Source: Methylotenera sp.
Lineage (GTDB): Bacteria > Pseudomonadota > Gammaproteobacteria > Burkholderiales > Methylophilaceae
Assembly (NCBI GenBank): GCA_020035195.1
Contig: JAIQBT010000026.1
Span: 1-40,315 of the forward strand
Direction of reading: 5' to 3'
DNA length: 40,315 nt
Shown: positions 7,708 to 14,696 of the stretch, in pieces
How positions within the stretch are numbered: the first letter of the stretch is position 1
How the letters are laid out: each line of letters begins with the position of its first letter
Position numbers and translations under genes: made by a program
Notes under the pieces: generated by a model
What the model saw: only the letters and a program-made list of their open reading frames with translations
Database searches by the model: none
What the model was told of the DNA's origin: nothing

Positions 7708-8889
7708 ATGTCAGATCATTTAATGAACACGTATATGCGTCAGCCCGTTACCTTCACTAAAGGCGAAGGCATTTGGCTTTGGGATACGGCCGGAGAAAAA
7801 TACCTGGATGCCTTGGCCGGTGTTGCGGTGAATGGCTTGGGTCATGCACACCCTAAATTGGTGCAAGCCATCAGTGCGCAGGCGGCCAAGCTCATCCATG
7901 TCTCCAATTATTATCACGTTGCCGAGCAAGAAGCGCTAGCGGATAAGTTGTGCGCTATTTCCGGCATGGATAAGGTGTTTTTTTGTAACTCCGGTTGCGA
8001 AGCCAATGAAGCCAGTATCAAGCTAGCTAAGCTTTACGGGCATAACAAAGGCATCAGCAACCCAGAAATTATCGTCATGGACAAGTCTTTTCATGGTCGC
8101 ACCATGGCGACTTTATCGGCCACTGGCAACCGTAAAGTCCAAGCCGGTTTTGAGCCCTTGGTCAGCGGTTTTATTCGCGTGCCTTACGATGATGTTGACG
8201 CCGTTAAACAAGTGGCCAGTAGCAATCCTAACGTGGTGGCCATCTTGGTTGAACCGGTGCAGGGCGAAGGCGGCATCAACATCCCTAAGGACAGCGGTGC
8301 TTATTTGGAAACATTGCGGCAGATTTGTGATGCACACGGCTGGTTGTTGATGCTTGACGAAGTGCAAACTGGCGTAGGCCGAACTGGCACTTGGTTTGCT
8401 TATCAGCATACAGCCATCATGCCGGACGTCATGAGTTTGGCTAAAGGCTTGGGTTCGGGTGTGCCTATAGGCGCATGCTTAGCCAGAGGAAAAGCCGCAG
8501 AGGTGTTTGTCTATGGTAAACATGGTTCAACCTTTGGTGGCAACCCACTGGCTTGTGCCGCTGGGTTAGCCACCTTGCACGCCATAGAGCAAGAAGGCTT
8601 GTGTGCCAACGCAGAACAAATGGGCGACTTAATTAGATCGGGTTTTCAGGCCGAATTTGCACATACCCCAGCCGTCAAAGTCGTGCGTAATGCCGGCTTG
8701 ATGATAGGGATAGAACTGGATAGGCCATGCGCTGAGCTGGTTAAAATGGCATTAGAAGCCAAGTTGTTAATCAATGTCACGGCAGACAAGGTGGTGCGTT
8801 TATTACCCCCTTTGGTCATTAACGAAGATGAAGCGCAAGACTTGGTTAAGCGCTTGTCTGCTGTAATAAAAACATTTATAAACAATTAA
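7708..8889 (+). CDS. argD: acetylornithine aminotransferase ArgD
   Basis: PLP-dependent class III aminotransferase that converts N-acetylglutamate semialdehyde to N-acetylornithine in arginine synthesis; many ArgD enzymes also serve the lysine pathway. The PLP lysine is K246 in SLAKGLGSG. Other family motifs seen are NSGCEANEASIKLAK, SFHGRTMATLSATG, VEPVQGEGG and LDEVQTGVGRTG. The 393-aa length is full. AAAGAG precedes the ATG. It is first of the cluster argD-argF-argG, with 85 bases to argF. The direct linkage with argF and argG supports an arginine role over a generic ornithine aminotransferase. A dedicated DapC-type enzyme is encoded at 23825, so this ArgD need not supply that lysine step. 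Confidence 0.95.
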   Translation: MSDHLMNTYMRQPVTFTKGEGIWLWDTAGEKYLDALAGVAVNGLGHAHPKLVQAISAQAAKLIHVSNYYHVAEQEALADKLCAISGMDKVFFCNSGCEANEASIKLAKLYGHNKGISNPEIIVMDKSFHGRTMATLSATGNRKVQAGFEPLVSGFIRVPYDDVDAVKQVASSNPNVVAILVEPVQGEGGINIPKDSGAYLETLRQICDAHGWLLMLDEVQTGVGRTGTWFAYQHTAIMPDVMSLAKGLGSGVPIGACLARGKAAEVFVYGKHGSTFGGNPLACAAGLATLHAIEQEGLCANAEQMGDLIRSGFQAEFAHTPAVKVVRNAGLMIGIELDRPCAELVKMALEAKLLINVTADKVVRLLPPLVINEDEAQDLVKRLSAVIKTFINN

Positions 8890-13351: not shown

Positions 13352-13370
13352 AAGCACTGTTATAGTGCTT
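13352..13370. promoter_or_regulatory. NtrC-type enhancer box 1 upstream of amtB
   Basis: AAGCACTGTTATAGTGCTT is a perfect inverted repeat containing GCAC-N7-GTGC, the core of the NtrC (NRI) site. Its centre is about 116 bases upstream of the start site predicted from the sigma-54 promoter, a normal enhancer distance. Confidence 0.8.
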
Positions 13371-13383
13371 TAAGAAAGCACGC

Positions 13384-13398
13384 GCACTAAATTTGTGC
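13384..13398. promoter_or_regulatory. NtrC-type enhancer box 2 upstream of amtB
   Basis: GCACTAAATTTGTGC is a second GCAC-N7-GTGC palindrome. Its centre lies 30 bases from that of box 1, about three helical turns, so two NtrC dimers could bind on the same face of the DNA. It is about 86 bases upstream of the predicted start site. Confidence 0.8.
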
Positions 13399-13450
13399 AT
13401 AAAATATCATCATATCAAGGGGTAGTTATTGAAAAACAGTTACTTAATGG

Positions 13451-13467
13451 TTGGCGCGCTATTTGCT
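13451..13467 (+). promoter_or_regulatory. sigma-54 promoter of amtB
   Basis: TTGGCGCGCTATTTGCT fits the sigma-54 consensus: GG at 13453-13454 (-24), exactly ten bases, then GC at 13465-13466 (-12). Transcription would start near 13477, giving a leader of about 28 bases that contains the GGAGA ribosome binding site. Because it lies inside the 5' extension of the track ORF, it also excludes the 13395 start. Confidence 0.87.
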
Positions 13468-13505
13468 TAGTAATCTTTCATAAAAAATACTGGAGAAGCT
13501 TAAAA

Positions 13506-14696
13506 ATGGAAACTTTAGTCTCAGCAAGTGATGTTTTATTTGTATTGTTAGGCGCCATTATGGTGCTTGCCATGCATGCTGGTTTCGCCTTTTTAGAGGT
13601 GGGGACAGTGCGTAAGAAAAACCAAGTGAACGCCTTGGTGAAAATCATGGTGGACTTTTCCGTGTCTACCGTGGCCTATTTCTTCATAGGCTACAGCATC
13701 GCTTATGGCGTAAATTTTTTTAGTGGGGCAGAAGTGCTGGCGGCAAAAAATGGCTACGATTTGGTTAAATTCTTTTTCTTGCTTACCTTTGCTGCGGCCA
13801 TCCCGGCCATCGTTTCAGGCGGCATAGCCGAGCGTGCTAAATTCAATCCGCAGTTAGCTGCCACGTTTGCCTTGGTGGGTTTTGTTTACCCGTTTTTCGA
13901 GGGCATCGCTTGGAATAACCACTATGGTTTTCAAGATTGGCTGCTACTGAATTACGGTGCTAAATTTCACGATTTTGCCGGTTCTGTGGTGGTGCATGCC
14001 ATGGGTGGTTGGATAGCTTTGGCTGCCGTGATCTTGTTAGGCGCACGCAATGGCCGTTACGCTAAAGACGGCAGGTTGCACGCCTACCCGCCGTCCAATA
14101 TCCCATTCTTGGCCTTGGGTGCTTGGATACTCACTGTGGGCTGGTTTGGCTTTAACGTGATGTCAGCGCAAGCCATACAAGGCATCTCCGGTTTGGTGGC
14201 AGTCAATTCCTTGATGGCTTTAGTGGGTGGCACTTTGGCGGCTTTAATTGTGGGTAAAAACGACCCTGGCTTTGTGCACAATGGACCACTTGCGGGCTTG
14301 GTGGCCGTTTGTGCGGGTTCCGACCTTATGCATCCCTTGGGGGCCTTGGCGACCGGTCTAGTGGCTGGCGCCTTGTTCGTTTGGGCCTTTAATTTAACGC
14401 AAAATCGTTTGAAAATTGATGACGTATTAGGTGTGTGGCCATTGCACGGTTTATGCGGTGCTTGGGGTGGAGTTGCTGTCGGTGTATTTGGTGCAACTGC
14501 CTTGGGTGGCCTAGGTGGCATCAGTTTAATGGCGCAGATACTAGGCACGGGCTTAGGTGTAATCATTGCATTGGTCGGTGGGGCTTTAGTCTACGGCGTA
14601 TTAAAAATGCTGATGGGCATACGCTTGAGCCAAGAAGAAGAGTTTGATGGCGCGGATTTAAGCATACACAAAATTGGCTCCAGCGCAGACGATTGA
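13506..14696 (+). CDS. amtB: ammonium transporter AmtB
   Basis: Inner-membrane ammonium channel of the Amt/Mep/Rh family, 396 aa, with about eleven hydrophobic helices. Family signatures include FAFLEVGTVRKKN, FEGIAWNNHYGFQDWL and DFAGSVVVHAMGGW; the pore twin histidines are in VVVHAMGG and WPLHGLCGAWGG. GGAGA at 13492-13496 sits nine bases before the ATG, and the sigma-54 promoter lies upstream, so the start is 13506, not the track start 13395. The first helix begins almost at once, so there is no long cleavable signal peptide as in E. coli AmtB. No glnK/glnB gene is adjacent, although amtB is usually paired with one. Expression is predicted to be NtrC-activated during nitrogen limitation. 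Confidence 0.95.
   Translation: METLVSASDVLFVLLGAIMVLAMHAGFAFLEVGTVRKKNQVNALVKIMVDFSVSTVAYFFIGYSIAYGVNFFSGAEVLAAKNGYDLVKFFFLLTFAAAIPAIVSGGIAERAKFNPQLAATFALVGFVYPFFEGIAWNNHYGFQDWLLLNYGAKFHDFAGSVVVHAMGGWIALAAVILLGARNGRYAKDGRLHAYPPSNIPFLALGAWILTVGWFGFNVMSAQAIQGISGLVAVNSLMALVGGTLAALIVGKNDPGFVHNGPLAGLVAVCAGSDLMHPLGALATGLVAGALFVWAFNLTQNRLKIDDVLGVWPLHGLCGAWGGVAVGVFGATALGGLGGISLMAQILGTGLGVIIALVGGALVYGVLKMLMGIRLSQEEEFDGADLSIHKIGSSADD

Follow-up and report, generated by a model that had tools for sequence, protein, structure and literature searches.

The region upstream of an amt gene in Methylotenera sp. is very probably an ordinary nitrogen-limitation promoter that is activated by phosphorylated NtrC, depends on sigma-54 and is probably helped by IHF. 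It lies in a window of 40,315 nucleotides (the whole stretch of DNA that was analysed), and its elements are listed in Table 1. When nitrogen is limiting, phosphorylated NtrC would occupy both boxes as an enhancer and oligomerise, and DNA looping would bring it into contact with the RNA polymerase-sigma-54 waiting at the -24/-12 site. A DNA bend at an IHF-like site, located between the enhancer and the promoter, would probably be of help. A second Amt without its own GlnK would then be made, raising uptake capacity when ammonium is scarce, and the gene would act alongside glnA and a separate glnK-amtB operon. NtrC binding, IHF binding and the induction of the window amt are predictions from the sequence and the comparisons described below.

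Table 1. Elements of the amt control region and the gene that it precedes. Positions are those of the window; distances are relative to the predicted +1.
Feature	Position	Strand	Sequence	Description and basis
NtrC-type box 1	13354..13368	+	GCACTGTTATAGTGC	Palindrome, exact GCAC-N7-GTGC; centre 13361, ~-117
NtrC-type box 2	13384..13398	+	GCACTAAATTTGTGC	Palindrome, exact GCAC-N7-GTGC; centre 13391, ~-87
IHF-like element	13434..13446	+	AAACAGTTACTTA	8/9 of WAWCAANNNNTTR, 7/9 of strict WATCAANNNNTTR; ~-44 to -32
Sigma-54 -24/-12 promoter	13451..13467	+	TTGGCGCGCTATTTGCT	12/13 consensus positions; predicted +1 ~13478
Ribosome binding site	13492..13496	+	GGAGA	From sequence; 9 nt 5' of ATG 13506
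amt gene	13506..14696	+		396 aa, Amt/Mep/Rh-family ammonium transporter, glnK-less second paralogue; profile scores, PDB relatives, alignment

The gene had originally been called amtB. The assignment to the Amt family of ammonium transporters stood, and the pore histidines H164 and H314 as well as D156 were invariant in the alignment. The protein did not reach the curated cut-offs for AmtB membership (PRK10666 and TIGR00836), scoring 306.3 bits against TIGR00836 (cut-off 343.3 bits) and 139.8 bits against the AmtB equivalog (cut-off 657). By these sequence comparisons the gene is a second, glnK-less member of the Amt family and not canonical AmtB. Its relatives in the PDB were 6eu6 (the best match), 8qj3, 2b2f and 1xqe. 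We take 6eu6 to be the Amt5 sensor of Kuenenia. Kuenenia Amt5 is an ammonium sensor (PMC5764959). A sensor role for the window Amt was set aside, as the protein has no kinase domain.

The neighbours of the window amt are a divergent DUF3301 gene and queG. That no glnK accompanies the gene was correct for this locus, where glnK is absent directly upstream, and did not apply to the genome, in which a canonical glnK-amtB pair sits behind a porin-like gene on another contig (G000:C23, L158:4417-7059). A -24/-12 match (TTGGCATACCAATTGCT, L158:4346-4362) precedes the first gene of this putative porin-like/glnK-amtB operon. The operon resembles the window locus in having an Amt-family transporter and a -24/-12 match. 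It differs in the linkage of glnK and the porin-like gene, in that no exact NtrC box pair was found before it, and in its AmtB, which shares only 32% identity with the Amt of the window.

Arrangement and conservation of the control region

The centres of the two boxes are exactly 30 bp apart, and no other exact GCAC-N7-GTGC match occurs in the window. The promoter reads TTGGCGCG-CTAT-TTGCT and was scored over the 13 defined positions of YTGGCACG-N4-TTGCW; the start site was placed by taking C13466 as -12. NtrC-activated sigma-54 promoters are characterised by -24 GG and -12 GC elements with correct spacing and by upstream NtrC palindromes on one helical face, and both features were found here. 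At their core, the window boxes fit the NtrC consensus of E. coli, TGCACCAnnnTGGTGCA (PMC8743547). The original prediction of the palindrome pair, the -24/-12 promoter and the ribosome binding site was confirmed at these positions, and its distances of about 86 and 116 bases between the predicted start and the boxes correspond to our figures of ~-87 and ~-117. Another strong -24/-12 match in the window, CTGGCACTTGGTTTGCT, was observed at 8384-8400 on the + strand.

When the window was shuffled 300 times with dinucleotide frequencies preserved, no pair of boxes 20-70 bp apart appeared; on average there were 1.2 single boxes and 0.43 promoter matches as good as TTGGCGCGCTATTTGCT per window. Single GCAC-N7-GTGC boxes occurred at 22 places in the genome, compared to 18 for a reversed control pattern, which is chance level. 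Single-box counts are uninformative, and significance is limited to the arrangement of a pair plus a promoter. As single boxes are not enriched genome-wide, the weight of the evidence lies in this arrangement and in its conservation.

Orthologues of amt were compared among genus mates (Methylotenera-like Methylophilaceae, 30 loci) and named genomes; the orthologue of Methylotenera oryzisoli is 95% identical to the window Amt. A box pair with a spacing of 30 was present at the orthologous position in 28 of the 30 genus loci, and in those 28 box 1 lies 96-98 bp from the promoter. The spacing was 31 instead of 30 in L039. L037 has kept the promoter and the IHF-like site and has no box pair at the usual position, which counts against the NtrC/sigma-54 reading. 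In a promoter-anchored alignment of the 30 loci, the mean information per column was 1.67 bits for the promoter, 1.3 for the IHF-like element and 0.7 for the boxes, compared to 0.38 for the linker and 0.25 for the spacer. When the alignment was anchored on box 1, the columns of the box half-sites climbed to 1.3-2.0 bits. At the level of the alignment this is a phylogenetic footprint, with the sites kept while the flanks and linker decayed. The NtrC/sigma-54 reading, its geometry and the predicted start site hold up, strongly backed by this conservation.

A conserved third half-site, TGCAC, lies between both NtrC boxes in many genus members. In the window, TGCAC does not occur at this register (13369-13383), and AGCAC is found at 13377-13381 instead; the half-site was dropped as a part of the window's control region because the register was not matched. 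Outside the genus, Comamonadaceae-type and some other orthologues (L105, L108, L118, L119, L129, L130, L133 and L134) have a -24/-12 match ~-88 to -99 from the ATG. No recognisable NtrC box pair was found at the usual place in these eight loci, which likely have a different enhancer arrangement.

The window region resembles E. coli glnAp2 in having a pair of NtrC palindromes separated by about three helical turns, ~90-140 bp 5' of a -24/-12 promoter. The NtrC sites of glnAp2 are spaced by ~32 bp, compared to 30 bp in the window. The window region differs from glnAp2 in driving a glnK-less amt, in having an IHF-like site and in its boxes being slightly nearer the start site. Within the genus, the glnA genes of 11 members all had a -24/-12 promoter, and in 10 of the 11 there were two boxes, neither with more than one mismatch, at a spacing of 30-31 bp. 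These glnA promoters share the two-box spacing and the -24/-12 promoter with the window amt. They differ in the distance from box 2 to the promoter (~73-75 bp, versus ~67 bp at the window amt) and have no IHF-like site at the amt register.

The IHF-like element

The IHF-like element is an addition to the original prediction, in which it was overlooked. The relaxed consensus WAWCAANNNNTTR was matched at 8/9 or better, 17-18 bp 5' of the TTGG, in all 30 genus loci; in base-shuffled sequence, 0.4% of loci would match at a fixed register by chance. Complete (9/9) matches to the strict IHF consensus WATCAANNNNTTR were found at the same register in five genus loci, and likewise, one base further upstream, in the two more distant loci L074 and L078. 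Genes for both IHF alpha (C52) and IHF beta (C76) are present in the genome, above the NCBIfam cut-offs. A predicted IHF site at this place, between the enhancer and the promoter, probably assists activation.

A class of promoters with an enhancer, an IHF-type site and a sigma-54 promoter within 200 bp has been described (PMC4740811). E. coli glnHp2 is an IHF-assisted NtrC promoter, as given by the citation of Claverie-Martin and Magasanik (1991) in PMC4740811. The window region resembles IHF-assisted NtrC promoters such as glnHp2 in combining these three elements in less than 200 bp. It differs from them in that IHF binding is predicted only, and its core departs from the strict consensus at two positions.

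The predicted IHF site has a serious rival, which covers this part of the control region only and leaves the NtrC/sigma-54 reading untouched. The AAACAAnnnnTTA element may instead be an A/T-rich, UP-like contact for the alpha subunit of RNA polymerase, or an extended part of the promoter. The register of the element is fixed relative to the promoter, its third position is A in most loci where the consensus has T, and the glnA promoters, with nearly identical boxes, lack the element at the amt register; all three observations are consistent with a promoter contact. The strict 9/9 matches speak for IHF instead, falling as they do at one register in the five genus loci and one base upstream in the two distant ones, as does the presence of both IHF subunits in the genome. 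We regard the UP-like contact or extended promoter as a tentative possibility, and an IHF site as the probable function of the element.

Nitrogen regulators in the genome and its relatives

The original prediction took the control region as showing that the genome encodes both RpoN and NtrC. The first part was borne out. A 521-aa frame on contig C82 of the window genome (G000) ends in the RpoN box ARRTIAKYRE and matches PF04552 with E=9.7e-67. It is preceded by lptB- and lptA-like genes, named after the usual gene order. The second part was not, as ntrB and ntrC were not found in this 80%-complete assembly, and this counts against the NtrC/sigma-54 reading. The best match to the NtrC profile in G000 scored 333 bits against a cut-off of 558.6 and is a different GAFTGA activator, encoded on C78. 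NtrC was likewise not found in the close relatives G061 and G006 (completeness of the three assemblies, 78-86%).

In the genus as a whole, 31 of 41 genomes had an ntrC that exceeded the NCBIfam cut-off. These include the close relative G002, in which ntrBC lies on a 3.2-kb contig; its NtrC has the GAFTGA loop, as does that of the complete relative G036. The gene order in G036 is glnA, a small gene, ntrB and ntrC, with dgt and aroB nearby, the names being assigned from the sequences without a profile scan. Searching with ntrB, glnA, dgt and aroB joined into one query gave no real orthologue in G000 or G006, glnA and aroB near contig ends in G061, and ntrB and glnA in G002. Since glnA, dgt and aroB are missing too and G002 has ntrBC, the absence of ntrBC from G000 is probably technical, an assembly gap, and we infer that the species of the window carries these genes. 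The 99%-complete relative G026 had no NtrC match above the family cut-off, which also counts against the NtrC/sigma-54 reading; its amt (L050) has kept the NtrC-type boxes, the IHF-like site and the promoter.

If NtrBC had truly been lost, the boxes and promoter might be used by another enhancer-binding protein, NtrX- or AtoC-like, such as the GAFTGA activator on C78. The failure to find NtrC in three incomplete assemblies and the presence of that activator in G000 are what would be expected in such a case. Real loss was nevertheless judged unlikely, as the neighbours of ntrBC are missing along with it from G000 and, similarly, from G006. G002 carries both ntrBC and a C78-type activator, and the boxes have kept NtrC half-sites. 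Use by a different activator is thus improbable, and NtrC remains the expected regulator. It is most improbable that the boxes and promoter arose by chance or are relics that no longer function. Single boxes do occur at background frequency genome-wide, but the shuffles contained no box pair, and conservation of the pattern does not extend to its flanks.

Expression data are available for OM43 strain NB0046, a cultured member of the Methylophilaceae, in which levels of glnA, ntrB and both amt genes increase in a nutrient-deplete regime (PMC5120137). The increase was hundreds- to thousands-fold for the PII-linked amtB operon and much smaller for the second amtB (PMC5120137), and we counted this weaker induction of the non-PII-linked gene against the NtrC/sigma-54 reading. 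By analogy, these data support the general direction of the predicted response and caution against assuming strong induction of the glnK-less amt.

NtrC and amt in Polynucleobacter-type genomes

A different arrangement was observed at seven Polynucleobacter-type loci (L077, L080, L082, L084, L089, L098 and L110). In all seven, amt has a single NtrC box whose centre lies exactly 39 bp 5' of a conserved CATAAT, a sigma-70-like -10 element, and the -24/-12 promoter is absent before the gene. The sigma-54 contact loop of NtrC in these genomes reads GAFPGA, not GAFTGA, and a scan of 36 genomes for ERGAFPGA gave matches in these seven only. No rpoN was found in six of the seven. The glnA region, read in five of these genomes, contains two boxes spaced by 51-52 bp, of which the second abuts AATAAT (ntrC and glnA loci, L206-L210 and L219-L225).

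On balance, these comparisons suggest that in Polynucleobacter and related genomes NtrC now activates amt and glnA with sigma-70, following a substitution in the loop. Rhodobacter capsulatus and Caulobacter have NtrC proteins that lack GAFTGA, the loop being deleted, and that are active at sigma-70 promoters (PMC10274813); in the Polynucleobacter type the loop is substituted (GAFPGA). Among the papers searched, Polynucleobacter and NtrC were named together only in a species description, which contains each term once.

The window region adds a good new example to the known NtrC/sigma-54 control regions, and the Polynucleobacter comparison is the more unusual result. For freshwater methylotrophs, the former provides a genus-wide, comparatively supported nitrogen-control element, and predicts NtrC control of a glnK-less Amt in addition to glnA. 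The latter offers a natural experiment on the survival of an NtrC regulon when sigma-54 is lost, in which the promoter, the activator loop and the sigma factor appear to have changed together.
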